A stretch of DNA of 64,000 nucleotides from Lacrimispora celerecrescens. GTDB taxonomy: Bacteria > Bacillota > Clostridia > Lachnospirales > Lachnospiraceae. Below are positions 27,137 to 51,372 of the stretch, in pieces. The position numbers and the translations under genes were made by a program. Position 1 is the first letter of the stretch. The number at the start of each line of letters is the position of its first letter. The DNA lies in contig NZ_JPME01000013.1 in NCBI RefSeq assembly GCF_000732605.1, positions 124,001 through 188,000 of the forward strand. The letters run 5' to 3'. The notes under the pieces are model-generated. The model saw only the letters and a list, made by a program, of their open reading frames with translations, ran no database searches and had not been told where the DNA came from.

Positions 27137-27227
27137 CTTTTTATTTACCTATTTTTAACTCTCTCAAAAGCCTTATTTTATAAGGACTTTCTCGTATTTA
27201 TCAGCTTTTTCTCCAATTACCCAAATT

Positions 27228-28518: not shown

Positions 28519-28591
28519 TATATCGAATCCTTTCCAAAATAATAGAGCATAGGCAATCAATTTGACCATGCTCATATTTTATCAAAATAAG

Positions 28592-29244: not shown

Positions 29245-32200
29245 TTATATTTTTGATACAACTTGCCTAAGAGCTTGATCTGTCAATTTAGCAAATTCTC
29301 CAAATGCATCCGTTACATCTCTCACATTCGGAAATGATAAATCTCCATATGAAATATGAATATCTGCTGGCTGCATTGGTTTTATTGCCTGTATAACACT
29401 GCTGTAATCTGGAATACTAGGTTTAAAACTATATGATGCCCCGTAATCTCTTAATACATTCTCCCATTTCACGGAAAAATCATCCTCTTTATGCAATTTA
29501 TACAAAGGGTGTACATCTGGCTCAATTTCCTTCAAGCCATGCTTTTCCAATTTTTGCATTACTGTCAGATTATCAGACGTATCAACGTTATCCAACAATT
29601 GTTCCTGTTGACCGTGATTTAGAATCGCTTCACCTTCATGCGCAATAATTGGAACTTCACCTGATTTTAACTCATTTGTAGCCAGATACTTAATCATCTT
29701 CTCACGTTCAGTATCAGATGATGATCCAACCAGACCATTTTTGATGCCATCAGCAAATACACCGGGGCCATTGTTTACATCACCAGTTCCCCAACCTTTA
29801 CCTCTGGATTTGTCATATGGTTCATCATCGGAATCATCAGAATCATAATCGTCTAATGCATTTTTCAGATTGTCACGAACCTGCTTTAGCACATCAAGCA
29901 TAGATGATACATTATCCGTTAACTGTTGCCAACTGGAAGTATATTCAGATATTGTGCCAGCATTTTTATTGTACTGTTCAAGCGATTTTACCAACTCATC
30001 TGCGGTTACAGATAAACCGTCTTTTATTCCCTTGAGAATACTATCACTATTAGCGTCCGTCCCATTTACTGTAGCAAGATAATCAAAGATATTTTGCAGA
30101 TTATCCATAGCAGTCATAGAATCATTCATCTGGGAAAGGAGACCGTTTATTTTAGTCATGGCTTGCTCATAGCTAATTTCACCGGCTTTATAGGAATCAA
30201 TGTAGTTTTCCAACAAAGAATAGATATTCGATGTAGAATCGGCCTGTTTCTGATATTGCTCTAACTGCTCGGCGTTAGTCTGATAGAGAGATGTAAGAGT
30301 AGCATAAATCTCTTCACTATTACCAGATAACACTTTTTCAGCCCAACCTTCGCCAAATAGAGATGTGGCTAAATTGGCATTTGATATCTTTTCAGCAGCC
30401 GAACTTATTTCAGAATATTTTTTGCTGATTTCCTCAAGAGCTTCTATCTGTTTCTGGTAACCATCATTCAAATCATCAAGATCCGTTTTCGCGTCCTCTA
30501 TCTGCTGTTGAAGGTTGTACTTGTCGATGTTAAATTGGGCATCGATTTTATCTTCTTTTGCCTTTCTTACTGCATCATAATCCTCAACATGTACTTCTTC
30601 GCCATTTCGGATTTCTTTATTTACTTTTTGGGATAGAGATCTTGCAAGATTATATTCAGCTTGCTCCAATGACATCTGTAACTTCAATTTTTCATTGGTT
30701 TTCTCTAATAAATCAGCCTTTTTCTGTAAAGCATCGATTTCCGCCTGATGTGCATCAGCAGCAACCTTTTGTTCCTCTTCCAATAAATTAATCTGGTCAG
30801 ATATTGCCGTAGTAATTGCCGAAGTTGCAGAATCAAGTTCTGATTTCACTCCATTTAATCCAGTAATAACTTTCTGTAAACTATCGGAATATGTATTGAT
30901 GCTTTCTAATGGCATCTTCAACAATTCTTCATTCCATTTTTGTAAATTAGTCACCATTGACGATGTAGCAGAGTCGATATCCTGAAGCTGATCGTATAAT
31001 TCTTGCCAGACCGAAGATCCCTTTTCATATTCACTCATGAGATTCTTTATTTCTCGTATCTGTTTCTCATACTGTCCGATTACCGTAACTCCATTAGAAA
31101 TAAGCATCTGATAATATTCAGCGTTTAACTTTCCTCCGGTAGCTGTCTGAACAGCTCCCCAATTTTCAATTTTAGCAGTGATATCATCATACATGGAAAT
31201 CATCGTAGATAAGTGATCGATGGGCATCTGCTTAAGTTTATTGTTATATTCTTCTTGGAGTTGTTTTAATCCATAAAGACTCTTTTTTGCTTCTTTGATA
31301 TCTCCATCTAGATTAGCATACTCCTCGGAATCCTTACCATATTTAGTACGTGCCGCTTTCAGCTTATCCTTAAGATCTGATATCTCTTTTTGTGTATTGG
31401 AAATTTCAGTACCTGTATTGTTGATGAGTTTTCCATAAAGAGATGCACTTGGTATCTCACCAATAGACTTTAAATAATTCATCTTTGCTTCAAGGATTGA
31501 ATTGGTTTTTTCTAATTGCTCATTTTCCTTGTTGATCGCTGCTATGCTATTATCATACTGGGCCATGGCAGCAGAGGTATTCTTTTTCTGTGATTCCGCA
31601 TACTGCTTTTGCATTGCAATCCAATTATCATATGCATCAATAGCAGCTTGGACATTTTCAGCATCATCACCTTTAAAGGTTTCAATGTCATTATGTCCCA
31701 ACTCAATTTTGGCCTTATCCTGGGCTGATATTTTACTTGCAGCATCCTCCCATACTTTTTTATAACCTTCTACGGTTTGTTCTGTCTGAGAAAGTATTTC
31801 TTTGTCCAGTTCAAGAACCTGTGCTAAGTAATTTTCTCTGGATTCGCCTGGATTGCCATTTGCAATGAGAGTGTATAATTCGGCAAGCGAAATACCCGCG
31901 TGTTTTGCAATAGCAGCTAATTCGTTTGCTCCATCAGTTACTGATCCAGTATTTTCGTTGAATAATTCCCTTGCACGAGCAAATTCTTCATTGGTGATTC
32001 CAAGGTAATCAATTGTAGAATCAGAAGCCTTTTCCATCAACTCAGAGCGTTTATCATTAAAAAGTTGAAGCTGACGCTCGTACCAGTTAATTTCTTTTTC
32101 TGTTTCAGATTTATCATTCTTAGAAGAACCAGACTTTGAATCAACAGAACCGATTCCACCGAAGTCAGGGGGAGTAATTTGAATAGAGGCTGCCTCATTA

Positions 32201-35200
32201 AGTCCATTGATGATTTGATTGTATTTATTCGCCTGCTTTGTAGCTTCTGACCATGCTTTTTGCTGTTCTTCACTTACGGCTACCCCATGCGAACTGGCAC
32301 GACTTAAATCCATTCCATCAAGGCTTGCTAGTCCTGAAATAGAGTCAAATACAATATTGTAATACTTTGACCAGGCAGATGATAAACTTTGAATTAACTT
32401 CTGGTCAATCTCCGCTTTCGCCTGTGCCATTGTTTTCCAGTTCTCAACGTCAAGTCCGTATGCCTTGCCTAGATCATCAAATAAGGACTTATTATTGCTT
32501 ACAGTTGTACTAAAAAACTCTACGTCATCAGAAAGTTTATATGCCATAGCTGCTTTATACGCCATAGCATCATTATCATATGCTGTCTGCAACTGTGATA
32601 TCATATCATCAGCGCTAATCAAGCCTTGGGTATACTCATTGACAGCGGCACGTAACTGTGGATACTGTTTTGTAATAGATTCTAATGAAGATAAACCTAT
32701 TTTACCTGTCTTTTTATACTGTTCACCTACACTTTTTAATAAATCGTAAGCGTTCTGGATATTAGAGGTTAAATCTGTAGATATGGTAAATCCATCGGCG
32801 TAATCCTTTAATGACTTTACTGCATCTCCAGCATTGGTTCCTGTTTGAGACATAAGATCATTCAATTCTGAGAATGAAGAAATACTCTTTTCGGTTATAT
32901 TTCCAGAATTAAGCAAGGAAATATATTCTTCTATTTTATCAATTGGAAGTTCTGAAAACAGTGTTGCGAAATTGGGCGCTGATTTTAATGATTCCTTGTA
33001 TTCTTTAATTAAATTCAGCAATTCTTCCCATGATAAAAGTGTTCCTTTTGGCACATCAATTTTATCAAAGGCAATCTCTAAATCCCCAAGAGATAGTTCT
33101 CCAACCTTTTCTATAGCTGATTCCTGTAATTTATCCTCAACACCCTGTATCATTGAATCTACACTTGAACCATCGGAAGATGAAACGCTGAATATGAAAT
33201 CAATGGACTTTTTAGTATTATCGTCAAATCCATCAATCAATGACTTAAAATCAGTTATTCCCTTTAAATATTCATCGAGTGTTACTTCTCCATTTTGAAA
33301 CTGCGCCTTTAAATCAAATGCTTTCTCAAACTGTTTCGCAATATTGGAGCCATCAACCCCTTCAAACAATGAGATAATGTTGTCTTGTACATATTCTTTA
33401 GCATTATCCCATGATCTGAAATCCAAAGAAGACCAGTCAAGGTTATTAATAATCTGCTGTACTGAAGCTTGCATTGAGTCAGACATAACCTTATATGAAG
33501 AATCACTGCTTAACCATGCTGCAATAGAACCGCCTAATGAAGACCAATTGCTTTTATTCTTGTTAGTCGTATTTGCAATATCTGTATTTAATTCAGCGAT
33601 ATCTTTTTCATAATGGCTTGCAAGCTCCTGAACACCTTTATCAATCGTCTTTTTGGCATTATCTATATCTTCATCAGAGGAAGTGATATTAAAGGTAAAA
33701 TCTACTGGAATTTCTTGCCCATATTCATTTGTTTTGTAATTAGGCGTTAAAGTCTCAAAGTCAATATTTGCTTCATTTAATAATTTCTCATAATCACTTT
33801 TCATCTGTGACAGGACTTCAAAATTATCACTGGATACAGTCAGCCATCTATTTGAAATGCCATCAATGAAATTATCAGCAAAATCATTTGACTGAACATT
33901 TCCGAGGCTATTGACCAGAGCGTCCCGTTGCTGTTCCAGATTATTCAGTTCAGCTTTATATGCATCCGATTTTGTAGTAGCACCCTTAAACACTGTCGGT
34001 AATTCATCTGCAATCTGAGAGTTGGTTAAATCCCGTTGCGCTTCAATTAAATCCTGTAATGATCCTACAATGGTGTCGACATTCCCACTTAGATTTACTA
34101 TGGCATTACCATTTTCATCGTAATTTCTGCTGAGAGTAGGGAATATCTTAGCTAAGTCGTTGCTGATTGAAAGAAATTCCTCATATTCGCCATCACTAAG
34201 AGAAACGTTCTTTCCGCTTAATGAGTCTATTCCCTGTTTCAGTTCTGCAAATTTCTTCGCTGAATCAGAAACTGTCTTTTGATTCGATTTTAATGCGTCG
34301 CTCAATGTTTCAATGCGATCTGCTGCATCAGAAGCGGCCTGTTTAGCTTCTTCCTGTCGCTGAATGAATTTTGTTATGCCAGCAATTGCTAACTGGATAC
34401 CAACTCCTATACCTAATGAGATAACAGCATTTAAAGCAACCGTTTTCCATCGTAATGCATCGGTTGATACACCAGCACTTTTCAAATATGCCTGATAACC
34501 TTTTAATGAAGCTGGTGCTTCTACGGAGCATGTGCCGAGGTAATCTTTTAATTGTGCGTTATTTTTGACTACTGACTCTCCAAACTTATTAACATCTGTC
34601 TGCCCTAGCAATAATTTCTTGTTCCAACCTTCAATAGCAGATCCAGCTTCTTCAAAGTGTTTCTTTTGGGCTTTTATAGCGGTAAAATCAATTCCCATAA
34701 GATTACCCTGGATATCAACCTTGCTTGTCTCTGGATTGAAGAGCTGAGTTAATCCATAATCTTTATTTAAAGCTGTCATAGAAGCATTTACTGCTGTTAA
34801 AAGAACTGGAAGCGCACCTATGGTATCGATCAACCTCTGAAATGCCTGAATGGTGTTATCAAGGAATGATACTCCACCCTTTATATGATCCTGATTAGTA
34901 ATAGAATTTACAAAACTATCCCATGTGTTCTGAAGTGAATTTAATCGTCCTTCCCATGAATCAGCCGTTTTCATTGCTTCATTAATAGAGGAACCACTCC
35001 CCCGTGAGAACTCAGATAACATTTTCTCATACATATCCCATCGGCTCAAAAGAGCAGTAAGAGCATTGGCGTGATATTTTCCTCCAAGGTCTGAGATTAA
35101 TCCTTGTCTTGCAGCACTGTTTTCAGGTAAAGAATTATATACTTGCGCTAACTCCTTCAATACCTCCATAGGATTACGGAGTTCCGCTCCATTCTCTCCC

Positions 35201-36498
35201 ATAACTTCCAATTCAACACCAAGGCTATGAACGCGCTTTTCTACCTTTTTAAGCTGTTCTTCGTCAATAATTTCTCCATCAAATTCTCCGGAAACTTGCT
35301 GTAAATTTAATAAAATGGAACGAAACGCTCTACCCATTTCGGAACCAGAACGCTTTGTTGCGGCTACCATTGTGGCTTCAGCAGCAGTTAACTCATCGAT
35401 CTTAACCCCAGCTTCAGCCGCATAAGAAGCACTTACACGAGTAGCATCGGCAATATCTGTAAGTGTTGCACTATTTCGATTACTAATATAATTAGCACCA
35501 TCTAAAGCAGCAGTTAACTTTTCAACACTTCCCCCATATTTATAAGCTGCGTCAGTAGCCAAAAGATAATTATTAGCCATTTCTGATGTCATATCACCAG
35601 CCGATTGTGCGAGTACAGATAGTTCACCCAGTTCTTTAGCTAAGGAATCATATCCAGAACGAGCCATCTCACGAACACCTTCCAGATAATTGGTTGCTGA
35701 CTGTCCATATTTACTTGCAATGCTAAATGAATCCTCACCTAACTTTTTAAGATTTTCACCAGCAATATTTGACGTCTTAGTTATCTCAGTCAAAATAGTA
35801 GACATGTCTTTAAGCGTAGAAACAGAATCCTTATATTTGTTAATCCCAACACTTGCCACACCAAACAATGTTCCTATTCTCGTAATTTTTCCGACCATAT
35901 CTCCAACTTTATCAGAAGTTGATTTACTCGCGAATCCAGTCGCCACAACTTCAGACTTAAATAATCTGAATTTCTCAGTAGCATAGCGAAAGGAATCTTT
36001 GCTGTCAATGGAGCTAAATAGCCCCCTTAATTTATCGGCCTCACCAAGCAATACAGAGGATTCACTTATCTTACTGTTTTTTGTCAGATAAGATGTTAAT
36101 TGATTCTGTAATGTCTCTTTCCTGATTTCAAAATTAATCGGAATTGGGGTTTTAGATATTTCTGTTCTTATATCTGTTATTATTTTTCTCGCTTTTAATC
36201 TTATTCCCTGTTCATTGATTTTAATATCATTAATTGAAACGTTCTTTAAGGCATCATTAACTGCCTTTTGAGCTTGTTTACTGTCGAAATCAGCCTTAAT
36301 TCTAATTACTCTGGCTTTAGATTCTAATTCTTTAATAGCTGCATTTACCTGCTTTTGGGATTCACCTTTGAATAAATCCGCTGTTAATCTTAGTGTATTT
36401 ATCGATTTTTCAATATTTTTAATATCCTGATTAATCTGCTTCTTACTTTTGGCAACACTCAAAGCCGCCATTAATTCAACCATAAAATCATTTGTCAT
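29245..36498 (-). CDS. Giant phage tail tape-measure protein (TP901 type)
   Basis: 2417 residues. In siphoviruses this protein sets tail length and helps DNA delivery. The TP901 core is clear at about residues 230-530: MARSGYDSLAKELGELSVLAQSAGDM, TATLTDIADATRVSASYAAEAG-type stretch, RSGSEMGRAFRSILLNLQQVSGEF, ADSWEGRLNSLQNTWDSFV. A hydrophobic helix pair near 685-710 (VISLGIGVGIQLAIAGI) follows, then very long coiled coils to about 2200 and a C-terminal ADGIKNGLVG...VPIIAHEGEAILN segment seen in tape measures. By the usual 0.15 nm per residue this predicts a tail near 360 nm. No other tail, capsid or terminase gene is recognisable in the element. Confidence 0.93.
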   Translation of the reverse strand: MTNDFMVELMAALSVAKSKKQINQDIKNIEKSINTLRLTADLFKGESQKQVNAAIKELESKARVIRIKADFDSKQAQKAVNDALKNVSINDIKINEQGIRLKARKIITDIRTEISKTPIPINFEIRKETLQNQLTSYLTKNSKISESSVLLGEADKLRGLFSSIDSKDSFRYATEKFRLFKSEVVATGFASKSTSDKVGDMVGKITRIGTLFGVASVGINKYKDSVSTLKDMSTILTEITKTSNIAGENLKKLGEDSFSIASKYGQSATNYLEGVREMARSGYDSLAKELGELSVLAQSAGDMTSEMANNYLLATDAAYKYGGSVEKLTAALDGANYISNRNSATLTDIADATRVSASYAAEAGVKIDELTAAEATMVAATKRSGSEMGRAFRSILLNLQQVSGEFDGEIIDEEQLKKVEKRVHSLGVELEVMGENGAELRNPMEVLKELAQVYNSLPENSAARQGLISDLGGKYHANALTALLSRWDMYEKMLSEFSRGSGSSINEAMKTADSWEGRLNSLQNTWDSFVNSITNQDHIKGGVSFLDNTIQAFQRLIDTIGALPVLLTAVNASMTALNKDYGLTQLFNPETSKVDIQGNLMGIDFTAIKAQKKHFEEAGSAIEGWNKKLLLGQTDVNKFGESVVKNNAQLKDYLGTCSVEAPASLKGYQAYLKSAGVSTDALRWKTVALNAVISLGIGVGIQLAIAGITKFIQRQEEAKQAASDAADRIETLSDALKSNQKTVSDSAKKFAELKQGIDSLSGKNVSLSDGEYEEFLSISNDLAKIFPTLSRNYDENGNAIVNLSGNVDTIVGSLQDLIEAQRDLTNSQIADELPTVFKGATTKSDAYKAELNNLEQQRDALVNSLGNVQSNDFADNFIDGISNRWLTVSSDNFEVLSQMKSDYEKLLNEANIDFETLTPNYKTNEYGQEIPVDFTFNITSSDEDIDNAKKTIDKGVQELASHYEKDIAELNTDIANTTNKNKSNWSSLGGSIAAWLSSDSSYKVMSDSMQASVQQIINNLDWSSLDFRSWDNAKEYVQDNIISLFEGVDGSNIAKQFEKAFDLKAQFQNGEVTLDEYLKGITDFKSLIDGFDDNTKKSIDFIFSVSSSDGSSVDSMIQGVEDKLQESAIEKVGELSLGDLEIAFDKIDVPKGTLLSWEELLNLIKEYKESLKSAPNFATLFSELPIDKIEEYISLLNSGNITEKSISSFSELNDLMSQTGTNAGDAVKSLKDYADGFTISTDLTSNIQNAYDLLKSVGEQYKKTGKIGLSSLESITKQYPQLRAAVNEYTQGLISADDMISQLQTAYDNDAMAYKAAMAYKLSDDVEFFSTTVSNNKSLFDDLGKAYGLDVENWKTMAQAKAEIDQKLIQSLSSAWSKYYNIVFDSISGLASLDGMDLSRASSHGVAVSEEQQKAWSEATKQANKYNQIINGLNEAASIQITPPDFGGIGSVDSKSGSSKNDKSETEKEINWYERQLQLFNDKRSELMEKASDSTIDYLGITNEEFARARELFNENTGSVTDGANELAAIAKHAGISLAELYTLIANGNPGESRENYLAQVLELDKEILSQTEQTVEGYKKVWEDAASKISAQDKAKIELGHNDIETFKGDDAENVQAAIDAYDNWIAMQKQYAESQKKNTSAAMAQYDNSIAAINKENEQLEKTNSILEAKMNYLKSIGEIPSASLYGKLINNTGTEISNTQKEISDLKDKLKAARTKYGKDSEEYANLDGDIKEAKKSLYGLKQLQEEYNNKLKQMPIDHLSTMISMYDDITAKIENWGAVQTATGGKLNAEYYQMLISNGVTVIGQYEKQIREIKNLMSEYEKGSSVWQELYDQLQDIDSATSSMVTNLQKWNEELLKMPLESINTYSDSLQKVITGLNGVKSELDSATSAITTAISDQINLLEEEQKVAADAHQAEIDALQKKADLLEKTNEKLKLQMSLEQAEYNLARSLSQKVNKEIRNGEEVHVEDYDAVRKAKEDKIDAQFNIDKYNLQQQIEDAKTDLDDLNDGYQKQIEALEEISKKYSEISSAAEKISNANLATSLFGEGWAEKVLSGNSEEIYATLTSLYQTNAEQLEQYQKQADSTSNIYSLLENYIDSYKAGEISYEQAMTKINGLLSQMNDSMTAMDNLQNIFDYLATVNGTDANSDSILKGIKDGLSVTADELVKSLEQYNKNAGTISEYTSSWQQLTDNVSSMLDVLKQVRDNLKNALDDYDSDDSDDEPYDKSRGKGWGTGDVNNGPGVFADGIKNGLVGSSSDTEREKMIKYLATNELKSGEVPIIAHEGEAILNHGQQEQLLDNVDTSDNLTVMQKLEKHGLKEIEPDVHPLYKLHKEDDFSVKWENVLRDYGASYSFKPSIPDYSSVIQAIKPMQPADIHISYGDLSFPNVRDVTDAFGEFAKLTDQALRQVVSKI

Positions 36499-36573: not shown

Positions 36574-37047
36574 TTAAAATTCTCTTTTACAATAATTACA
36601 CACTCGTTTAATTCGTCCACTTCCTAGGAAGCCCGTAAACAAGCTGTATCCTTTATTGAGTAGGGTATATTCTTTGCTCATGCAGTAAGGACATCTTGCT
36701 TCGGGGGTTTTATTCTCTGGGAATATAAATGCATCAGGGATATGTGTACGAAGAATTTCTTTGACCGCATCCAACCCACCTGGGTTACTTTCAGGTGGAG
36801 CTTTGAACTCTTTAATTAATGTCAACGCACTGGGATCGTTTGGCAACTTATCCCAAAGACTATAATCGCCATATTCCGGGTCTTTATAATAATACCATGT
36901 AATCCAGTCCTTATGTTCATCTTCTTCAGCCACATCAGCCATATTACCGCCACATACTGGACAAGTATCTACATTCCCCTGTTTTCCAAGCAAGAACATT
37001 TTATTAAAAGTCGAATTACATTGACTACATTTTATATTTTCTTCCAT
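36574..37047 (-). CDS. Zinc-ribbon protein of unknown function
   Basis: 157 residues with two treble-clef or ribbon-like metal sites at the N-terminus (CSQC near 7-10, CPVCGG near 32-36) and another pair near the C-terminus (CPYC, CNYCKREF). The middle is acidic and Trp/Tyr-rich (HKDWITWYYYKDPEYGDY). An upstream in-frame GTG adds three residues, but GGGGG lies eight bases before the ATG at 37047, so I chose that start. It sits between the tape-measure gene and a 249-residue unknown, on the same strand, and may be a chaperone or regulator of tail genes (inference). Confidence 0.7.
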   Translation of the reverse strand: MEENIKCSQCNSTFNKMFLLGKQGNVDTCPVCGGNMADVAEEDEHKDWITWYYYKDPEYGDYSLWDKLPNDPSALTLIKEFKAPPESNPGGLDAVKEILRTHIPDAFIFPENKTPEARCPYCMSKEYTLLNKGYSLFTGFLGSGRIKRVCNYCKREF

Positions 37048-37109
37048 ATTCAGCACCCCCTATCTACTATTATAATATACTACAATCCCAAAATTATCCA
37101 TACCTTTTT

Positions 37110-37859
37110 CTATTTTATACTGTTTAATTCTGCAAAATACCGATTCATCGTATCAGTAGTCTCTTTAATACTGTACACCGATTCTACTACTTTTCCAAGA
37201 CTTATTGGATTAAAAACATCTAACCATTTATCAATTAAAATCATACAGTATTCAGCATTGTAATTACCAGCTAAACATTTGGCTATGGCATTAAGACTTA
37301 ATGAGTCATAGGTTTCTTTCTTATTATTCAACACTGTAAATAAATCGAATGGAGTTTTTGCTATGTCAACATTAAGTTGATTAAGCACACTCGTACTTTT
37401 AACAATATCTTCATCGGCTAAATCATAATTATTTTGGCACTCATTAAGACAAGATATGCGTGTTATAACATCATAAACAATTCTAGCACACTCTTCTACT
37501 GGTTTCATTGTTACATTCATGATTACATTTACCATTCTTGCAAAGTTGTCTGCACTAATACCTGGCATAACAGTCGCTTCATCAGGCGGTACAAATGCTT
37601 TTGCTTCTTCCACGAGTTTCTGGCAATCTCTAGTAATCATAAAGCCATTTAATTTTTTCAGTACACTTTTAGTGTTAATCCATGTATTTACATGACTATC
37701 TATTGCTTCCAATGTTCCTTTGTATTGATCGGGTTCGTTCATTAGCTGAACGACATTATAAAGATTTGTATTCTTTAATAATGCCACCTTTTCTTCTGAA
37801 TTCAATTTATTGATTTCCTCAAAAACCTCGTCTACCGTAAACTTCTTTTCATTTTTCAT
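37110..37859 (-). CDS. Unknown 249-residue helical protein
   Basis: Mostly alpha-helical; begins MKNEKKFTVDEVFEEINKLNSEEKVALLKN. No membrane helix, signal or catalytic motif recognised. By position (directly before the zinc-ribbon and tape-measure genes, same strand) it could be a tail-assembly chaperone of the kind normally encoded before tape-measure genes, but it lacks an obvious slippery-frameshift partner. AAACGGAGGAAATAG precedes the ATG. Confidence 0.65.
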   Translation of the reverse strand: MKNEKKFTVDEVFEEINKLNSEEKVALLKNTNLYNVVQLMNEPDQYKGTLEAIDSHVNTWINTKSVLKKLNGFMITRDCQKLVEEAKAFVPPDEATVMPGISADNFARMVNVIMNVTMKPVEECARIVYDVITRISCLNECQNNYDLADEDIVKSTSVLNQLNVDIAKTPFDLFTVLNNKKETYDSLSLNAIAKCLAGNYNAEYCMILIDKWLDVFNPISLGKVVESVYSIKETTDTMNRYFAELNSIK

Positions 37860-38070: not shown

Positions 38071-38268
38071 TTATTCCTCAAAGTGTCCTGTTTCGTTGCC
38101 AGTTAGATATGCCTCTAATCTCTTAAACAAATGTGGAAGAAGTTCAACTTTCCCCAATTTGAATTTTGACAGCAGACTTTCATCAATCATTGTAACTCCT
38201 GCAATGTAACGCTGTCTTTCTCTCTTGATTCGCTCACAATACAGATACCGTAATTCCTCCTGTGTCAT
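38071..38268 (-). CDS. Small unknown protein
   Basis: 65 residues, helical, Arg/Glu-rich (MTQEELRYLYCERIKRERQRYIAG...). GGGAGG lies seven bases before the ATG. First gene of the minus-strand run that leads to the tape measure. Function unknown. Confidence 0.6.
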   Translation of the reverse strand: MTQEELRYLYCERIKRERQRYIAGVTMIDESLLSKFKLGKVELLPHLFKRLEAYLTGNETGHFEE

Positions 38269-38488
38269 TCTTACGCCTCCCTTCTTTTAGATATCTAATT
38301 TTTTGGTAAAATTAATTATATAGATCAATTATTTTTGTGCATATTTACCATATCCCAAATTTCAGTTATGTGTTATAGTTTATTATGGGTAATTTTAATC
38401 TAATACACATCAAAAAAATAATATATTGAGAAAGGACACTACTGGACTTACGTTTCTTTCATGTCCTCTCTTCTCTTAGTGAGATTTT

Positions 38489-38515
38489 GGAAACCCTTAT
38501 AAATCAACGGTTTCC
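38489..38515 (-). terminator. Hairpin at the end of the RNA polymerase-like gene
   Basis: GGAAACC and GGTTTCC form a perfect seven-base stem overlapping the stop codon; the minus strand continues AAAATC, so there is no strong T-run. Together with the 228-base noncoding gap that follows it probably ends the polymerase transcript. Confidence 0.5.
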
Positions 38516-41253
38516 AGGATTTTTTGTGGACTTTTTGTAGATTTTTTGAAGCATTTCAGAAACCCCACCGGATCTTTATCATATAAAACAGTTAATAATC
38601 TATCACGAATTCCTCCATTTGGCATAAATGCATATTTTATTAAAGCCATCATTGCTGGGTGTTTAATCTTTATATTCTTTAAATCATCAATGCACATATC
38701 AAATCTCAACAACACTTTCTTATAATAATCTTCATCTTCTCTATTCAATTTATCTATATCTTTACTATAGCCATCCACAATATTAATTACTATTTCATAC
38801 TGTTTCCTATCTCTTGAATTATCAACCTTGTATTGAAACACCGCACTTAATGGGTAAGTTAATTTACACTGCTCTTTGTGTTCTCTTAAATCAATTACCT
38901 TCTCGTCTATAATCCCATATATGATATCCATAGGACAATTAAAGTAAGCTACTTCCTCGTCTTTTATTTTACATTTCTTCTTCCCCCGTTGAATGTCTGC
39001 ATAGAAAACCGGATATTTGAATTTAGGGTTCATGCAACTAAGTTCGCTCAACCTTTTCAATTCTGCATTAACATCTATATCAAAGTTACGTTTTGCTGAA
39101 TCAATGGCTACCTGTGCCATAACAGAGCAAATTATAAACACCTCTTCCAATTCTTTACTATTGCAGTTCTTATCATAATAATAACTTAGTGCTAATTGTG
39201 CTATATTGCTTGCCTGACCAATCGAAAGTTGAGCAGAAGAGATTCTATAATCCATTTGTGCATATGATGACATATCCTTACTGTATGGGCTTATTCCTTG
39301 CAATTCTATATCATTGGTTATAGTAGGGTATGTTAAATACGCCTTTCTCGCTAAATCCACCATCTCATTTTGATTAGTGGCATAAATAAAATCGCTGTCC
39401 AAATCTTGCCCATTTAATCGGCTCTGTATATCGGTGCCAATACCATTAATGATAATTACCTTATCGCCCAAATGAGAAAAGTACTTTTCAATAGATTCTG
39501 AATATGTATTTACAAGATGAGCAATATTATTTGGGGAATTATGCGGATTTCGAAAGCCGGCTATTCTCTCACCATCTTTAAATCTGGAAGTGTAACATTG
39601 GATACCGTCATCAATCACCTTAAAACACGGCTCTTTAATAAAATCTTGACCAGTTACTTTCATTAATAAAGCTATGGGATTTCCACAAATAGTAAGATTG
39701 TCCCCGTTCTGAAGTAGTTTTCCTAGCCGTAGCCTTTCCATTTTGAACTTGCTGATAATATCTCTCTTTTTTATCTTAAAGTATTCAGTGTATCTAAAAT
39801 TTTCATTCAATTGATCTAAAGCAATCAATACATTATTAATACTGTATTTAGAACTCGTTAATTGTAAATGCTCCATAAAAGCGTTGTGATTAAGTTTCAG
39901 TTTATTACAATATTCCACACTGGGACTGGCAATTTTTTCGAGAATATCTTTATCTACGGTTGGTATACTATTATTGACTTGATATGAACTTCTTTGTAAT
40001 TCTCCCCATTTACTCTTATGGGCGGTTTTCAATATGGAAAACATATCTCCACACTTTTTCATATATCTCTTATAATATTTATATGCTTTAGCCTTAGTCC
40101 CTCCCATCAGGTCAATAAACTTTATCCACTTAATTGAATTATGTGTTACAATAACCTTAATGTCTGATACTTTCATTTGATTACCAAACATATCTTCTAT
40201 GGTTTCAGTTTCATAATCAGCACCATAGTAATCCTTAAAATACTCTTGTAGACTTCCTCTAAATAAACATGATTTGAAAAAGTGGCTTCTACAATATATA
40301 AATCCTTCCATATCGGACGGAAATAAAGAATCATCAATCAATCCCATGCCGTCCCATAAAACATTGCTTACCTCTGCATTATCATTATGTTCAACATAGC
40401 ATTCTTTTTTATAGACAATGCTCTCCTTGGTTGGACAATTGTCTATTACGATGCCATTTTCTTTCAATGATTTTTCAGTCTTATAAATAAATTTAAAATT
40501 CGGATTATCTTTCAGCTTCTTTTTATAAAAGGTAAAATCAAAATTATTTATATAATCTTCGGTAGCATCAAAATCCAATACAGTTTCAAGATATGGGACT
40601 TCCTTGGTCTTTACCGATACTGCTTTCAGTATTGTAGAGACTTTTTTATCTTCTACGATTAAAATGTTATCTAATGGTAATTTAATATAATCTATTGCCG
40701 TAGCTGTTACCATTGTGCTATATGCTGACAATCCTACTATATCCGCATTTTCTGTTGGCATCTTCCTGTACAGATCCATTGTTATATATTTTATAGCTAC
40801 GTCATACAAGTTATCTCGTATGAAAATGCATTCTCCTTGTTTTGCCTTACCAGGGGAGCGCATCAGCATCTTATAATTGATGGTTTTCGTCTTTCCCTCT
40901 ATTACCTCGCCATCTTTATTATAGGTTTTCCAAGTAACACTAGCACCATTTTCATAATAATGCTCTCTTAGTTGTTTAGTAGTAAGGCGAGGTTTGTCAA
41001 CACCATTTATTGATTGCTTTTTTACGGAAAAATCAAATTTCATTACAATAAAATCCTTGCTGCGCCCTTTTCTATTAACAGTTACACCATGTTTTCTCAT
41101 ATACTCAGAAAACAAACTATCAGTGATTACGGCATCTCCCAGATCAAGAAATGCTTTGTCATAATTATTATTTACACAATATAAACTATTGGCCTGTATG
41201 CTCTTAATCCTTATTGGCTGCCCAACTGTATCCCCTATGACTATTACCTCCAT
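38497..41253 (-). CDS. Putative single-chain two-barrel RNA polymerase (YonO/QDE-1-like)
   Basis: 918 residues. The key evidence is at 566-625: GFRNPHNSPNNI, a predicted strand DKVIIINGIG, then NGQDLDSDFIYATNQ with Asp617, Asp619 and Asp621. This matches the order R-x-P...P-x-D-I, ...vvFxxxG..., SGxDLDGDxYxV of the metal-binding double-psi barrel in QDE-1-type RNA polymerases and in the SPbeta phage polymerase YonO, with Ser620 replacing the usual Gly of DxDGD. Length (YonO is about 900 residues) and mobile-element context also fit. The rest shows Lys-rich segments such as KLRLGKLLQ-like RLRLGKLLQNGDNLTICGNP, comparable to the first barrel. No multisubunit polymerase contamination is possible, since the gene is a single chain. 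It could transcribe the tape-measure block downstream. Identification rests on motif reading only. Confidence 0.72.
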   Translation of the reverse strand: MEVIVIGDTVGQPIRIKSIQANSLYCVNNNYDKAFLDLGDAVITDSLFSEYMRKHGVTVNRKGRSKDFIVMKFDFSVKKQSINGVDKPRLTTKQLREHYYENGASVTWKTYNKDGEVIEGKTKTINYKMLMRSPGKAKQGECIFIRDNLYDVAIKYITMDLYRKMPTENADIVGLSAYSTMVTATAIDYIKLPLDNILIVEDKKVSTILKAVSVKTKEVPYLETVLDFDATEDYINNFDFTFYKKKLKDNPNFKFIYKTEKSLKENGIVIDNCPTKESIVYKKECYVEHNDNAEVSNVLWDGMGLIDDSLFPSDMEGFIYCRSHFFKSCLFRGSLQEYFKDYYGADYETETIEDMFGNQMKVSDIKVIVTHNSIKWIKFIDLMGGTKAKAYKYYKRYMKKCGDMFSILKTAHKSKWGELQRSSYQVNNSIPTVDKDILEKIASPSVEYCNKLKLNHNAFMEHLQLTSSKYSINNVLIALDQLNENFRYTEYFKIKKRDIISKFKMERLRLGKLLQNGDNLTICGNPIALLMKVTGQDFIKEPCFKVIDDGIQCYTSRFKDGERIAGFRNPHNSPNNIAHLVNTYSESIEKYFSHLGDKVIIINGIGTDIQSRLNGQDLDSDFIYATNQNEMVDLARKAYLTYPTITNDIELQGISPYSKDMSSYAQMDYRISSAQLSIGQASNIAQLALSYYYDKNCNSKELEEVFIICSVMAQVAIDSAKRNFDIDVNAELKRLSELSCMNPKFKYPVFYADIQRGKKKCKIKDEEVAYFNCPMDIIYGIIDEKVIDLREHKEQCKLTYPLSAVFQYKVDNSRDRKQYEIVINIVDGYSKDIDKLNREDEDYYKKVLLRFDMCIDDLKNIKIKHPAMMALIKYAFMPNGGIRDRLLTVLYDKDPVGFLKCFKKSTKSPQKILETVDL

Positions 41254-41837: not shown

Positions 41838-43025
41838 TCAGATTCCCCACGTTACTTTCAATTCGTTCAAATATAGCATATCTTCCATGTTTCCATCTTC
41901 ATTATCAGGGTGAAAATTTTTAGCCAATATCCGAAAACATTTCTTATAAAAATCTTTATTACAATCTGAAATAACGGTTGTTGTAGTTTTAGACTTTTCA
42001 TATGTTTCGCTCCATTTATCAGTACGCTTATAAAAATCCTCTATATCTTCCACATGAGCCTTTTTCCATAGCATAATAAAATCATTTTTATATTTTTCTG
42101 GTATATGCCTCATCCAAATGGGATCTGGTGTCTCATCAGAATATACACTGCATTCAATATAAATTTCCTTGTGTCCATTTAGTTCTATAAAAAATCTGCA
42201 AGCTCTACTAAGACCAAGTGAATCATCTTCTATGAACTCATATTGCAAATCGCATTTTATATTAAACGCTTCAAACAAAGAGCTTCTTCTACGCATTAGA
42301 GATTCCCTTTCTGTTCTCAAAGTAGATATTTCTTTGTCTATTTCATTCATGCGATTATCAAATTTATCAAGTCTATGTTCAATAGTACTTTCTTCTTTAT
42401 TTGGGACTGGATTCTTAATAGACTGGTAAGCCTTATCAATTGACATTTCCTTTTTTCTAACCTTATCAATTACTTCCGCATTTTCAGATTTCATTACCTT
42501 GTCTAATTTATGATAGCTACCTTCAGATATTCCCACCTTTTTGGCTTTCTCTTTTCTGGCATTAACTGTTGTCAAATTTGACAAACCTTTACCACCATCA
42601 GATTGATTTTTCTTTGCCATTGCCTTAATAAGATCACTATATTTCTCCACAACCTCATATCTATCTACTTCCGATAAATTACGTCTTGCTAGCTGATTTT
42701 CAAACATATACTTCTTCACTTCATCTTTTGTATCAAATACTAACCAGTCAAAACACCATGACGGCAATTCAATATTATGTTTCTGACATATTTTAAATCT
42801 GTTATGCCCATCAATAATATAAGACTTTGCAATCTGATCATTGTCGCAATTAAGTTCCTCTTCAGGTGGACACCATAGTTGAATCCTACTGGAATGTTGC
42901 ATGAAACCATTTTGAAGAAGACTTTTTTCTAATGTTTCATAATCATCTTTTGATAAAGCTGGTAATAAATTCTCTAACTCTGGATCAATTTCTATATTAT
43001 TGCTATTCACAAATCGTACATTCAT
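41838..43025 (-). CDS. ParB-like nuclease-fold protein with C-terminal J-domain-like module
   Basis: 395 residues. N-terminal ParB/sulfiredoxin-like domain (about 1-120) with LSKDDYETLEKSLLQNGF and the signature IIDGHNRFKICQKH, then a helix-turn-helix region (NLSEVDRYEVVEKY, AKKVGISEGSYHKLDKVM). A coiled coil follows near 215-250 (ESTIEHRLDKFDNRMNEIDKEIS...). The last 35 residues read FYKKCFRILAKNFHPDNEDGNMEDM, a J-domain-like helix II with His-Pro-Asp at 372-374. A ParB domain joined to a J-like module is unusual. It lies in line with the polymerase gene and six bases from the next gene, so it is part of the element core. Role may be partition, transcription or recruitment of host DnaK (inference). 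Confidence 0.78.
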   Translation of the reverse strand: MNVRFVNSNNIEIDPELENLLPALSKDDYETLEKSLLQNGFMQHSSRIQLWCPPEEELNCDNDQIAKSYIIDGHNRFKICQKHNIELPSWCFDWLVFDTKDEVKKYMFENQLARRNLSEVDRYEVVEKYSDLIKAMAKKNQSDGGKGLSNLTTVNARKEKAKKVGISEGSYHKLDKVMKSENAEVIDKVRKKEMSIDKAYQSIKNPVPNKEESTIEHRLDKFDNRMNEIDKEISTLRTERESLMRRRSSLFEAFNIKCDLQYEFIEDDSLGLSRACRFFIELNGHKEIYIECSVYSDETPDPIWMRHIPEKYKNDFIMLWKKAHVEDIEDFYKRTDKWSETYEKSKTTTTVISDCNKDFYKKCFRILAKNFHPDNEDGNMEDMLYLNELKVTWGI

Positions 43026-43799: not shown

Positions 43800-45392
43800 T
43801 TAACCGCCTTCAATTTCGGGATCATGCTGAACAATTTTCCAGGCAGACTTATACACCCTTTTTATTTTCTTACCATTTTCAGTTGTGGAATACCTGGTCG
43901 TAGAGAATTGTTTTATACGATAATCAATCTCCCTCTCTTCCAATACATCATTAAGAGTCTTTAGTTTCTTTAATTGCTTTCCATCCTGTTTTGCATTAAT
44001 CTTTTTTATAAGCTCACTTCTGTCTCTCACTTGCAGCATTATTACATTTTCCTTTATCAGTGATTCAAGATAACTTTCCAAGTCATATTCTTCATTTATC
44101 AGCCTGTAATCACAACGCCCACGTGCTTCATCGTAAAAACCAAAAGTTATCGCTAAATATTTACAATATCCGAATTTTCCATATTTTTTCATCATTAATT
44201 CATAATCAGCAATATCTTCTCTCTTTTTAAAATACATCAGCTCATTGACCTTTTTAGTGTATGAATTACTTATGATATCTCCGGTTTTATTATAGGTGTG
44301 ATCGTCATAAAGAATATTGTTTATATCGTTTTGCATAGGATACTTCTCAATCAGTTTGTCCATGGAATATGAATTTTTCATGTAAAATTCTGCCATTTCC
44401 ACTTTCTGCTCCATACTCCTTTTGAGTCCAGCCAGTTTTTGATTATTTAATATTTTAATATATATGTTGACTTTATCATCATCATCTTGAATACGCTTTC
44501 TTCCCATGCACTGAATTAGCGAACCAATATCTACAATATCTATTATTATGTGCTTTAATTCTCTATCAATTATGTTTATTCCAGCATCAAAACATGAAGT
44601 TGTAATTAAAAACTGTTCATTAAACTTTTGTTCCATCAGCATTTTATTTATTTTTTCTTTGTCTACGGCATCATAATATTTATTATTATTGGCACTACAA
44701 TTGAATAAACAATGTTTTTTATACTTTAAATAAAGCTTATAAGCTTTTTCTGCCGATTGTATAAAGAAAATACCTTTATCACCATTTTCAATACCCTCTT
44801 TAATAAACTCTTCCATGGTGGCATCTTTATGAAAGAATGTTAATTTATTTATAAATGAATAATCTTTAGGTATATCATATTCAATGGCATCATCTATTCC
44901 CTGTTTCATCATGTATTTTTTCATGTAATTTGCCATATTATCACCTGTTGCAGACATAAAAAGCTTGATCGAATTAGTCTGGTTTATAATCGTATTAAAT
45001 GAAATTGCCGTTTTGTTATTAAAACTACTGTCGTTAAAAAAGTAATGAAATTCATCACAAATAATGTATTGATAATCATTCAGATTAATCTTCTTTGTAT
45101 TCTTCAACCTTGAATATTCCAATGATTGATAGGTAATAACAGTAATAACATCACTTTTTGCATCATTCTCAATTTCACATTTAAACTGTTCAACACAATT
45201 AGAGCGATGAATTAGCATTAATATTTTTCCACCCGTTTCATTGGCTAACCGATATAACGTATGTTTACAAAAGTAACTTTTCCCGACTCCAGTACCAGCA
45301 GAAATTAATACATTACTACCTTTTTTCCAAGATCTAGCATCTTCTTCTTTTATGATATCTGTCACTCTTACTTTTTGCTTGATATTTGCCAA
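43800..45392 (-). CDS. Superfamily 2 helicase (DEAD/DEAH-like)
   Basis: 530-residue ATP-dependent nucleic-acid helicase. Motif I AGTGVGKS (32-39), motif Ia near LIHRSN, motif II DEFH (113-116), motif III SAT (147-149), a second RecA domain with IFFIQSAEKA and TTSCFDAGINI, and motif VI QCMGRKR (294-300). The C-terminal 200 residues are unrecognised. It resembles replication or late-transcription helicases of large phages and plasmids. Same strand as the tubulin genes upstream; a noncoding structured locus lies downstream. No DNA polymerase or primase is recognisable in the element. Confidence 0.87.
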   Translation of the reverse strand: MANIKQKVRVTDIIKEEDARSWKKGSNVLISAGTGVGKSYFCKHTLYRLANETGGKILMLIHRSNCVEQFKCEIENDAKSDVITVITYQSLEYSRLKNTKKINLNDYQYIICDEFHYFFNDSSFNNKTAISFNTIINQTNSIKLFMSATGDNMANYMKKYMMKQGIDDAIEYDIPKDYSFINKLTFFHKDATMEEFIKEGIENGDKGIFFIQSAEKAYKLYLKYKKHCLFNCSANNNKYYDAVDKEKINKMLMEQKFNEQFLITTSCFDAGINIIDRELKHIIIDIVDIGSLIQCMGRKRIQDDDDKVNIYIKILNNQKLAGLKRSMEQKVEMAEFYMKNSYSMDKLIEKYPMQNDINNILYDDHTYNKTGDIISNSYTKKVNELMYFKKREDIADYELMMKKYGKFGYCKYLAITFGFYDEARGRCDYRLINEEYDLESYLESLIKENVIMLQVRDRSELIKKINAKQDGKQLKKLKTLNDVLEEREIDYRIKQFSTTRYSTTENGKKIKRVYKSAWKIVQHDPEIEGG

Positions 45393-45725: not shown

Positions 45726-46790
45726 CTATTTTGTCGTTCTCATCTGCTTTAGTAGTTCCAATTTGCTAAGTTTTTTAGCAGGTGTAGCCTTTACAGGTAC
45801 GATCTCATCTTCTAAGTCCAAATTTGACAGCTTTTTTACTGCCGATTGATGAGAACGCTTACGCTCTGCAAATCCCTGTTTAGCAAGCTCTCCTAATTTT
45901 GAAATATGTTCAATAGGATAACTCAATCCAGACACAGCAACCAGTGTATTTTTGCCATTATAGCCCTCAAAGACATTCAAGGGCTTCCCTACCTCTGATA
46001 CAATAGCGTCAGTGTTTATGTCATTCTCTCCGGAATGAATAATGCCAATCAGACCACACTTCTTATCGTTTTCAAGAGGTGCAAAGATACCAGTTCTAAC
46101 CAATTTATCGACAAGCATTTCCTGTTTATCCTTACCTGTCAAGCTAAGTACCATAGCACCTGAATCTCTTAACATTTCCAATCTTTCGGAAGTGTCGAAG
46201 TTATTCAGTTCTCCCACTGATTCATCTGTCAGGAATGAGTCCAACAATTTAGCAAAAGTATTATTGATCCACTTCAAACCTGTCGTTGCATTCGTCACAC
46301 TATTATTAATGAAGAAACTGGCTCCCAACCCTTCAATCTCTTGTAACTCTGCAATAGACTGATAAGCGTTTTTATGCTTACCTATAGGCTCGTTAAGTGC
46401 CGGTAAAAATGGGACTGGACATATTACCTTATCTGGACTGCCCTCATCATCTACCGATTCCAACAACTGCTCCAGTATGTATGTTGACAAACCGGCTCCA
46501 GTGCTGCCACCTGATCCATACAATAGAAAAATAATCTTCTGTTCCACGTTCTGAAGAGCTTCTAATAAATCCATGTTTTGTTGTAGGCATTCAATAGCCT
46601 TTTCTCTACGACCACCGAAGCCATCAAAGCCATGTAACTTAAAGATGTTCTTCACATTCCCCAGCAGCTTCAAGTCCTGTTCAGATCCATTGATGAACAT
46701 TGCTGCATAGCCATTATCTGCTTGGATTTTAGCATTTTTACAGCCGCAATTTCCAACTCCAATAAATAACACATCGTTCTTTAAACTCAT
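45726..46790 (-). CDS. tubZ: TubZ-like tubulin/FtsZ-family GTPase
   Basis: 354-residue cytomotive GTPase. The tubulin signature is GSGGSTGAG at 92-100, preceded by the Rossmann start NDVLFIGVGNCGCKNA and the N-x-x-x-D-like nucleotide segments; the C-terminal tail is Lys-rich (KKLSKLELLKQMRTTK), as in plasmid and phage TubZ. It overlaps the winged-helix gene upstream by four bases, the layout of type III partition loci. Expected role: form treadmilling filaments that segregate or position the element DNA. Its presence implies an extrachromosomal or phage-like stage. Confidence 0.87.
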   Translation of the reverse strand: MSLKNDVLFIGVGNCGCKNAKIQADNGYAAMFINGSEQDLKLLGNVKNIFKLHGFDGFGGRREKAIECLQQNMDLLEALQNVEQKIIFLLYGSGGSTGAGLSTYILEQLLESVDDEGSPDKVICPVPFLPALNEPIGKHKNAYQSIAELQEIEGLGASFFINNSVTNATTGLKWINNTFAKLLDSFLTDESVGELNNFDTSERLEMLRDSGAMVLSLTGKDKQEMLVDKLVRTGIFAPLENDKKCGLIGIIHSGENDINTDAIVSEVGKPLNVFEGYNGKNTLVAVSGLSYPIEHISKLGELAKQGFAERKRSHQSAVKKLSNLDLEDEIVPVKATPAKKLSKLELLKQMRTTK

Positions 46791-47053
46791 TTAATTCCTC
46801 CCTCAATTAAATTAATCCCTTTTTCCATAATATAGTAGGTATCCGAATGATCATCAATGACCCCTTTCGCAACATACCCAGCTTTTACAAGTTTCTGTAA
46901 CTTTTTATACACCGTCATTCTGGCACCCAATGCACCGCCAGCTTCTTCTAGCAATTCTGTAATTGTGCAACTATTAAAATGATCTTTGCAATCATTCGCA
47001 TGGAGTTGTCTTAAAAGCATATACGCCAAGCGGTTAATCTCATTTGATTCCAT
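46787..47053 (-). CDS. tubR: TubR-like winged-helix DNA-binding protein
   Basis: About 88 residues with a winged-helix fold: INRLAYMLLRQLHAND, LLEEAGGALGARMTVYKKLQKLVKAGYVAKGVIDDHSDTYYIMEKG. It is coupled to tubZ (ATGA overlap) and is the presumptive centromere-binding adaptor. I chose the ATG at 47053; an in-frame ATG at 47074 would add seven residues but has no ribosome site. I did not find a clear iteron centromere upstream, only an imperfect palindrome AGCAAG...CTTGCT at 47087-47110. Confidence 0.75.
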   Translation of the reverse strand: MESNEINRLAYMLLRQLHANDCKDHFNSCTITELLEEAGGALGARMTVYKKLQKLVKAGYVAKGVIDDHSDTYYIMEKGINLIEGGIK

Positions 47054-47084
47054 CACTTTGCATTGTCCTTTCATCTATTTTGGT

Positions 47085-48418: not shown

Positions 48419-48447
48419 TTGACTTTTTTATGTGTGTAGTGTATGAT
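48419..48447 (+). promoter_or_regulatory. Sigma-A-type promoter of the XRE regulator gene
   Basis: TTGACT and TATGAT with a 17-base spacer, 28 bases before the ATG at 48476. The -10 overlaps an upstream in-frame ATG, which rules that ATG out as the start. Confidence 0.8.
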
Positions 48448-48475
48448 TACTTTAAAAATATTAGGAGTTGATTTT

Positions 48476-49537
48476 ATGAAATTTACTGTCACAGAAGCAC
48501 TTGTTTCCTATATTAAAGAAAAACGTAAAGAACAAAATATTAACGTTACCACTTTTGCCCAAAAGATAGGTAAAAGCAAATCTTACATAACTAAATTTGA
48601 TAATTGCGAGTTTAAGACGCTTACCGTTGAAGCTTTTAATGAGATATTTGAGGCAATTAGTGAAACAAAAGAACAATCAATTGAACTTATGGACGAATAT
48701 TTTTTATCATTGATCAAGAATAAATATGTTGATAAAAATATTGATTTAATGGTAGATGTGTCAAACTATAGTAATATAGTAAAAGAAATAAAGGTACGTG
48801 AAAATTTAATAAAAAAATTCAATAAAATGCTTGAATCTAAAAATCTTAGTATTCATGATATTGTTGAATTTGCAAACTCAAATGATCCAGTAAAAACCTA
48901 TTCAAATTTTGACTCAGTAGAATATAATGAGTATGTTGCCCCTCCACTGTCTGCTAGTGGTGAAGGCAGCGAGCAGAAAGTTTATATAAAAATTAATTTA
49001 GATGAAGATTTTGTTTCTTCTATATTAACGGGAAATATTGATACTTGTAATTATTTTACTCTTCTAGCAATAACTAATGCTTATTATCGTATAGAATTGC
49101 TAAAGTCAGAAACTCTAAATATTAAAGAAAATGCCGATAAGATAGCCGGACTTTCAGCTCGCAACTTACTATTTAACTTTCATATTTATTCCCTAGAGGA
49201 TTATTACAAAATACAAACGAGCAATGACAATATTAAGGAATTGTCTGTAGATTTAAGCAATGTATCACATAGTATTCAAGGTACCCTAGGAGGGTATATG
49301 AATTTAATAGCTAAAATATATTATCAAAATCCATTTTATATCGAAGATAAAGTACTGGGATTTAGGGAAAATTTGGAGGCTGATGCCCCTTTCTGCATAG
49401 CTGCAATGGATTTACCCTTTTACAAAGTAAAAAAATTTAGCACTGATAACAAGAAAAAACTATTAAAAGAAATTACTGCTATTATTGATAGATATGCAGA
49501 CGATGAAGAATATCAAGAACAAATAGATCTTATTTAG
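48476..49537 (+). CDS. XRE-family regulator with large C-terminal domain
   Basis: 353 residues. N-terminal helix-turn-helix at about 5-60 (SYIKEKRKEQNINVTTFAQKIGKSKSYITKFDN), then a helical part and a 200-residue unknown domain. Start at 48476 has TTAGGAG nine bases upstream. The only rightward gene of element 1, facing the tubRZ-helicase-polymerase run: the arrangement of a lysogeny-type repressor. The large C-terminal domain may sense a signal; no peptidase (LexA-like) motif was seen. Confidence 0.75.
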   Translation: MKFTVTEALVSYIKEKRKEQNINVTTFAQKIGKSKSYITKFDNCEFKTLTVEAFNEIFEAISETKEQSIELMDEYFLSLIKNKYVDKNIDLMVDVSNYSNIVKEIKVRENLIKKFNKMLESKNLSIHDIVEFANSNDPVKTYSNFDSVEYNEYVAPPLSASGEGSEQKVYIKINLDEDFVSSILTGNIDTCNYFTLLAITNAYYRIELLKSETLNIKENADKIAGLSARNLLFNFHIYSLEDYYKIQTSNDNIKELSVDLSNVSHSIQGTLGGYMNLIAKIYYQNPFYIEDKVLGFRENLEADAPFCIAAMDLPFYKVKKFSTDNKKKLLKEITAIIDRYADDEEYQEQIDLI

Positions 49538-51276: not shown

Positions 51277-51372
51277 TTTTAAATACTCCATAAATGTACT
51301 ATGAACTGTTAATTCTTAGTAAAATTATAGCATATGGGGCAGCATGACAGCATTGCCACATTATGGATTCAT

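Follow-up and report, generated by a model that had tools for sequence, protein, structure and literature searches.

The locus described here raises the question of what a single-chain RNA polymerase does in a tRNA-integrated element with one giant tape measure protein (TMP) and no phage head genes that were detected. The window, that is, the whole 64,000-nucleotide (nt) stretch of Lacrimispora celerecrescens DNA analysed, contains on its minus strand an open reading frame (ORF, 38497-41253) that encodes 918 amino acids (aa), with an ATG start codon and a plausible ribosome site, AGGGTGAT, upstream. We assign the product with high confidence to the YonO family, as a new and divergent member. 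It is probable that this chain, predicted to contain two double-psi barrels and most likely to use a DNA template, serves a 38-kb element as its private polymerase and transcribes the operon behind its own gene. Handles beginning with G, C and L denote genomes, contigs and loci, respectively, and G000 is the genome of the window.

The polymerase and its predicted fold

The positions of the polymerase and its conserved parts are as follows.

38497..41253, minus strand: single-chain RNA polymerase of the YonO family (phrog_8308), predicted to be a two-barrel enzyme, 918 aa, assigned by profile, alignment and predicted fold
39376..39414, minus strand: NGQDLDSDFIYAT, residues 614-626, with the predicted catalytic D617/D619/D621 (family alignment; family profile aligned with RDR2)
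39523..39552, minus strand: RNPHNSPNNI, residues 568-577, with invariant R568 and P570 (family alignment)
39172..39273, minus strand: long helix after the DxDxD region, residues 661-694, with invariant G679, a bridge-helix candidate (model secondary structure and alignment)

The motif begins at residue 614 and places Asp residues at 617, 619 and 621, with R568 located 49 residues before D617; the coordinates, strand, motif and spacing reported in a first-pass annotation of the sequence are thereby correct. From the 59 long polymerase ORFs collected, two copies of the window (L002 and L023) and five truncated or broken rows (L003, L007, L011, L013 and L026) were dropped and SPbeta YonO was added, giving a set of 53 members. 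The equivalents of D617, D619 and D621 are kept in all of them (53/53). A family alignment of 36 sequences drawn from phages and genomes has 14 invariant columns, D301, G302, R322, K327, K375, Q425, R568, P570, D617, D619, D621, G679, D718 and K721. The invariant columns and the complete retention of the Asp residues rule out DxDxD as a chance motif. Between the window polymerase and three relatives with 58-65% aa identity, the differences are 0.18-0.20 at second codon positions and 0.54-0.56 at third positions and, judging from this comparison, the gene is under purifying selection.

In L003 (2581-6151) and L007 (830-4253), the polymerase gene is in three pieces. The first break lies just before DxDxD in L003 and inside DxDxD in L007, and a group I intron (RF00028) is found at 5276-5525, in the second gap of L003. 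In these two loci, the catalytic motif seems to be where introns reside.

The profile phrog_8308, labelled 'unknown function' in PHROGs, matches the window polymerase at 1.2e-75 (256.6 bits, residues 113-905). It was taken as the YonO family because SPbeta YonO scores 1220.3 bits on it and because B. subtilis was the sole positive among the control genomes (1/14). Matches to this profile are found in 15/25 genomes of the window's genus, 34/299 of its family and 5/398 of its phylum. When a profile of the 36 members was compared with PDB sequences, maize RDR2 (1.8e-6), Arabidopsis RDR2 (5.7e-5) and Neurospora QDE-1 (4e-4) were retrieved, and the first non-polymerase match appeared only at 0.048. 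The profile segment 'GaDfDsD' is aligned to 'GGDLDGD' of RDR2, with the DxDxD columns in register. The Pfam family of RNA-dependent RNA polymerases (RdRPs), PF05183, of which we take QDE-1 to be a member, matches 11 of the 36 sequences at E ≤ 0.01 (best, 2.9e-19).

The AlphaFold model of the polymerase, built with 30 sequences, is confident, with a predicted local distance difference test score (pLDDT) of 86.6 and a predicted template modelling score (pTM) of 0.83. Foldseek gave 21 PDB matches at E ≤ 1e-3, all of them QDE-1 or RDR2 (best, 2.6e-13; next match, 0.13), so that these matches, taken whole-chain, all belong to two-barrel enzymes. In a viral library, the model matched best (5.1e-50) a phage protein, itself predicted, that bears the name RNA dependent RNA polymerase. 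The 34-residue helix that follows the DxDxD region in the model is a candidate for the bridge helix, judging from its place, which is as in two-barrel enzymes. The first-pass annotation had proposed a YonO/QDE-1-type enzyme, to be checked by structure prediction; the proposal is borne out by the phrog_8308 match, the RDR2 and QDE-1 profile matches, the invariant catalytic residues and the predicted fold.

Several results weigh against this identification and should be noted. The window polymerase has no Pfam family at E ≤ 1, PF05183 included, and no NCBIfam match; it resembles PF05183 but is no filed member. The best BLASTP match with SPbeta YonO is not significant (E 0.22), and profile and fold evidence was used for this reason. 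The polymerase alone matches no PDB polymerase sequence either, and the case for its identity rests on profiles and on the predicted fold. The fold search compares whole chains. Its matches to QDE-1 and RDR2 have TM-scores of 0.36-0.51, root-mean-square deviations of 9-14 and approximately 10% identity, and therefore only parts of the structures are closely alike.

The fourth motif position had been thought to make the window enzyme (DLDSD) a new active-site variant, with Ser in place of Gly. This did not hold: the 53 members have Gly in 24, Ser in 23, Thr in 3, and Tyr, Met and Ile in 1 each, so that DxDSD is about as common as DxDGD and 29/53 members have a residue other than Gly. Ser occurs in at least two separate lineages in a quick LG+G4 tree of the 53 members (816 of 2436 columns, long branches flagged), which rules it out as unique to the window. 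The three nearest relatives on the tree have DLDTD, SPbeta YonO has Gly, and the homologue of Spbetavirus BUCT082 has Tyr. The non-Gly members provide natural variants for active-site tests.

The characterised member of the family is YonO of SPbeta, which extends RNA on DNA, is strictly DNA-dependent, is inactive as the 3D>3N form and drives the SPbeta late genes (PMC5467207). In the view of its authors, YonO and the cellular RNA polymerases diverged earlier than the last common ancestor, and YonO may be similar to the single-chain forebear of the latter; its promoter is left open there (PMC5467207). SPbeta YonO (NC_001884, yonO) and the window polymerase share phrog_8308, a single chain (839 vs 918 aa), R-x-P followed by DxDxD with three Asp residues, and a gene position upstream of virion genes. 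They differ in the motif (DNDGD vs DLDSD) and have no significant pairwise match, and the 134-kb phage SPbeta carries terminase and portal genes behind yonO, neither of which was found in the window element. QDE-1 and RDR2, close to the window polymerase in Foldseek and in the register of the family profile, are unlike it in identity and whole-chain TM-score, and are eukaryotic RNA-silencing enzymes.

Phage single-chain two-barrel RNA polymerases also include phi14:2 gp66 and P23-45 gp64 and gp96, according to PMC10770324, where gp96 is described as fused to a TMP; in the window element, the polymerase and the TMP are separate genes. None of the three is among the PDB matches of the window model at E ≤ 1e-3, and a piece of a phi14:2 protein matches the model at 0.0084 in the viral library. 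WDQ45559.1 of Enterocloster phage PMBT24 also matches phrog_8308 (2e-95). It differs from the window polymerase in having DFDGD and only 20% identity, and adjoins a histone-like gene, terminase and portal in a record titled as a complete phage genome. The passage on 'polymerase' in the PMBT24 paper does not mention this protein (PMC11035940). In BUCT082 and PMBT24, two further 'unknown' profiles, phrog_25339 and phrog_35857, cover the N-terminal and the C-terminal part of the polymerase; this split perhaps stems from an interrupted gene in Enterocloster CB phages. All three profiles, phrog_8308 included, could be annotated as YonO-type polymerase.

The hairpin RNA behind the polymerase gene

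The second conserved feature of the locus is an RNA hairpin.

38414..38484, minus strand: conserved hairpin RNA just past the polymerase stop codon, core GAAAGAAACGTAAGTCCAGTA (covariation, covariance model)

This 71-nt segment comprises a variable outer stem, an inner helix of two pairs and an almost invariant core around CGUAAG. It lies at the polymerase stop codon or just behind it in 13/15 loci, and before a displaced TMP operon in one more. In L126, an insertion parts the polymerase from the hairpin, which remains on the TMP side. Among 12 hairpin sequences, 11/13 pairs are changed on both sides, a value reached by 2/500 shuffles. The covariation score is 0.718, compared with 0.403 in shuffles (0/500 reach the observed value) and at most 0.448 when slid. 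For the measure 'further pair types', the alignment does not exceed its shuffles (100/500 reach the observed value). The 12 sequences were selected by their match to one core pattern, by which the conservation of the loop is inflated.

The covariance model finds the hairpin at E ≤ 2.7e-8 in 14/15 distinct loci (the window and L121-L134), the one without it being L124. Two of these loci, L127 and L129, are outside the training rows, and the hairpin of L127 is nearly that of L126. No further match below 0.04 was obtained with the model in 1.46 Mb, and the model did not find the hairpin in G271 (L076 and L077), the next relative on the tree. A search of 323 distinct genomes (sets of 299 and 25, with G000 in both) gave strong matches in G000, G011, G297 and G279, each directly behind a polymerase gene; the first three are training loci and G279 is possibly one too. 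Two weak matches (0.002-0.003) are located elsewhere in these genomes. Rfam gave no match for the hairpin stretch even at E 1, and only a tRNA for the whole window at gathering cut-offs. The k-mer TGTGGAAAA, which five loci carry 61-119 nt past the stop codon, is missing from the surroundings of the window polymerase.

The loci in which the hairpin occurs and its placement in them therefore allow, as a fair reading, that it would be a leader RNA with which the operon of the polymerase opens.

The element, its relatives and the sister loci

The other features of the element are listed below.

27065..27137, plus strand: tRNA-Arg(CCG), integration target (tRNA annotation)
27111..27136, plus strand: left attachment site (attL), a 26-nt repeat with its second copy at G000:C13:189522-189547 (repeat search)
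27334..28575, minus strand: tyrosine integrase (PF00589, 3.6e-29)
28910..29188, minus strand: 92-aa protein, with a homologue after the TMP in relatives (homology)
29245..36498, minus strand: TMP, 2417 aa (PF10145, 1.1e-17; phrog_4211, 6.3e-72)
36574..37056, minus strand: zinc-ribbon-like protein, 160 aa, with homologues before the TMP in several relatives (below Pfam cut-offs)
37110..37859, minus strand: 249-aa protein without clear family (Pfam, NCBIfam and PHROGs scans)
38071..38268, minus strand: 65-aa protein, helix-turn-helix-like by eye, with homologues behind the polymerase in several relatives (homology)
41838..43025, minus strand: ParB-like protein with a weak DnaJ-like C terminus (phrog_12047, 6.1e-9; DnaJ 0.026, below cut-off)
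43800..45392, minus strand: DEAD/ResIII helicase (PF04851, 5.2e-13)
45726..46790, minus strand: TubZ-like tubulin (PF22340, 5e-13)
46787..47074, minus strand: small regulator beside TubZ, a TubR candidate from its position (phrog_17403, 1.9e-5)
48443..49537, plus strand: divergent regulator, a repressor candidate (phrog_14474, 0.0038, weak)

The integrase adjoins the tRNA gene, and the 26 nt of tRNA-Arg are repeated past the end of the window, so that direct repeats bound both ends of an integrative element of 38.4 kb. Its GC content, in 4-kb steps, is 31-38%, compared with mostly 41-48% in the surroundings. Scans of 39 element ORFs against Pfam or PHROGs, a few short listed ORFs being left out, matched no terminase, portal, capsid, tail tube or tip gene; the ORF lists were also judged by eye. 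A 157-aa ORF at the far end of the element (L061:561-1034) has a weak tape-measure-type match (8.3e-5). The G000-wide searches, which covered terminase, portal, polymerase and the window TMP, gave one weak match to the terminase phrog_2 (4e-5, with stops) and none to phrog_2739; in G020, G022 and G203, these two profiles did retrieve both genes next to the polymerase. These results agree with the first-pass view of a tRNA-integrated element rather than an SPbeta-like phage: the terminase, portal and head genes that accompany the polymerase in Spbetavirus were not detected. A point on the other side is G626, in which the profiles found no terminase or portal despite capsid-like ORFs seen by eye, and the absence of head genes is thus to be read as non-detection. 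That no head, packaging or tube genes were found favours a satellite-like element or a head-less tail derivative over a phage.

Further genes are found in the element. A second tyrosine integrase in its middle (50104-51291) suggests a nested insertion, and an invertase is also among the ORFs. An Mrr-like restriction endonuclease (54461-55345) and an HNH endonuclease (62611-63930) are present. The ORFs at 61183-61608 and 61613-62218 encode a phrog_6988 protein and a protein with membrane-like stretches, by eye a TIR-like defence pair.

The polymerase gene is followed by a TMP gene in 14/15 named relatives, the 15th being a 3.4-kb contig. The paired relatives, at 37-62% identity, include Parablautia muri, Petralouisia muris, Clostridium sp. 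HBUAS56010 and two records of Lachnospiraceae bacterium 28-4; the polymerase is unbroken in 13/14, and lies 8-9 kb from the TMP in two. BLASTP with terminase, portal and tube references gave no match in the flanks (≤10 kb) of the 15 relatives. Several have TubZ, helicase, ParB-like or ClpX-like genes upstream of the polymerase. Downstream of the TMP, there is an integrase in L129, where polymerase, TMP and integrase lie inside 13 kb, and by eye a recombinase in L124. Unlike the window element, that of G011 encodes a minor tail protein after the TMP. A second polymerase copy of Lachnospiraceae bacterium 28-4 (L135, 9971-11532) is split over two frames, and a hairpin match of marginal strength (E 0.2) lies 38 nt behind it.

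We also compared 22 wider polymerase contexts of approximately 30-40 kb each. A TMP lies downstream of the polymerase, without terminase or portal match, in 16/22. Eleven contexts (G001, G002, G004, G009, G012, G023, G037, G109, G173, G277 and G313) have a tube match too, and in eight of these the full set of three tip proteins is present. The window's genus contributes six of the eleven, with an identical gene order; judged by ORF starts, four lie in one chromosomal neighbourhood and two in a second. The window TMP is approximately 40% identical, over its best segment, to the TMPs of six same-genus loci. The tube assignment is based on a model of moderate confidence (pLDDT 73.9, pTM 0.55); at E ≤ 1e-3, this model has 18 PDB matches, all to tail-tube, neck, tail-tip or baseplate proteins, one of them listed only as 'SPR'.

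With polymerase, HU, terminase and portal, three contexts (G020, G022 and G203:C13) have the appearance of SPbeta-like phages. A phrog_2 search of 20 of these genomes, some with short contigs, found terminase within 10 kb of the polymerase only in these three. The remaining contexts are G021 without tail genes, G695 with no clear picture and G626 with the capsid-like ORFs.

F-type tailocins are defined by genes for tube, TMP and tip and by the lack of head genes; of the three, only the TMP was found in the window. Judging from their genes, the 11 loci with tube and TMP resemble tailocin operons that have a polymerase of their own. They would share with F-type tailocins, of which rhizoviticin is an example (PMC10811719), the character of chromosomal head-less phage tails, and differ in that a gene for a single-chain polymerase precedes the operon.

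The giant RNAs ROOL (L003, 8424-9021) and GOLLD (L004, 9486-9976) lie downstream of two family members. A general link between polymerase and giant RNA was rejected on a search for ROOL, which was found in 2/200 family genomes (G049 and G193), neither with a polymerase match, and the proximity may be a coincidence.

Proposed role of the polymerase and alternative readings

In the mechanism that we infer, for catalysis, DNA template, promoter used and target alike, D617, D619 and D621 would hold the catalytic magnesium. Once repression is lifted, the early genes, for TubZ with its regulator, the helicase, the ParB-like protein and the YonO-type polymerase, would be transcribed by the host enzyme. 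The YonO-type polymerase would next take on the operon beginning directly behind the polymerase gene, with the hairpin RNA, the small proteins, the zinc ribbon, the TMP and the 92-aa protein.

What kind of element this polymerase would serve can be read in several ways. The element may be a parasite of tail length or tail identity, a satellite with its own TMP and polymerase to which a helper phage gives head, tube and tip. We regard this as a possibility of some substance, though a doubtful one. The integrase, the TubZ and ParB-like maintenance genes, the lone TMP and the lack of detected head genes are consistent with it, as is G011, which has such an element (C1) together with an SPbeta-type portal (C16, E 3.1e-107). 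However, no packaging-hijack gene was recognised in the element, the phrog_2 and phrog_2739 searches gave no helper in G000, and a literature search that covered few subscription journals and no preprints found no paper joining tape measure, satellite and TubZ.

A decayed SPbeta-like prophage, in which the polymerase and the TMP are leftovers after loss of the head, tube and tip genes, is rather unlikely. The failure to find these genes would fit decay, the second integrase and the invertase suggest rearrangement, and elsewhere G021 keeps a polymerase without a tail operon and the polymerase of L135 is broken. On the other hand, the polymerase-TMP pair recurs without terminase, portal or tube match in 14/15 relatives (in flanks of at most 10 kb, beyond which such genes may lie), and identical decay again and again is unlikely. 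The unbroken polymerase in 13/14 relatives, the purifying selection and the compact arrangement in L129 also argue against decay.

It is unlikely that the element encodes a tail particle without a head (tailocin) or derives from one as a mobile form. Sister polymerases do precede tube-TMP operons without terminase or portal match in 11/22 contexts, and the PDB matches of the tube model agree with tails; however, neither a tube nor a tip gene was found in the window element, which could therefore not build a tail alone.

An RdRP acting on RNA instead of a transcriptase is most improbable, since, although genes of PMBT24, Thomasclavelia and Psychrobacillus phages are labelled 'RNA-dependent RNA polymerase' and the closest solved folds are RDR2 and QDE-1, the labels are annotations only, the element is DNA with tailed-phage genes, and the characterised SPbeta YonO is strictly DNA-dependent (PMC5467207).

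For the private transcriptase, what is unexpected to a specialist is its presence in an element with a lone TMP, the position of its sisters before head-less tail operons, and the hairpin. A literature search with the same coverage (few subscription journals, no preprints) found no paper linking tailocin and YonO, and for tape measure with YonO the one paper on phages was a jumbo-phage review. It is about as apt to hold as to fail, with a slight lean towards the latter, that the window's family contains a class of mobile element, undescribed as far as these searches show, with a private YonO-type polymerase, a giant TMP as main virion gene and a new structured RNA, and that chromosomal tailocin operons have, in several lineages, adopted the same polymerase family; the structured RNA would then mark where the polymerase's operon begins. 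Service to head-less tail operons and to a lone-TMP element would, if real, be a new use of such an enzyme, and the hairpin RNA would give a first handle on the sequence that it recognises. If this is true, a YonO-type polymerase would act as a transcription switch not just in phages but also in tail-based particles and in the parasites of these.

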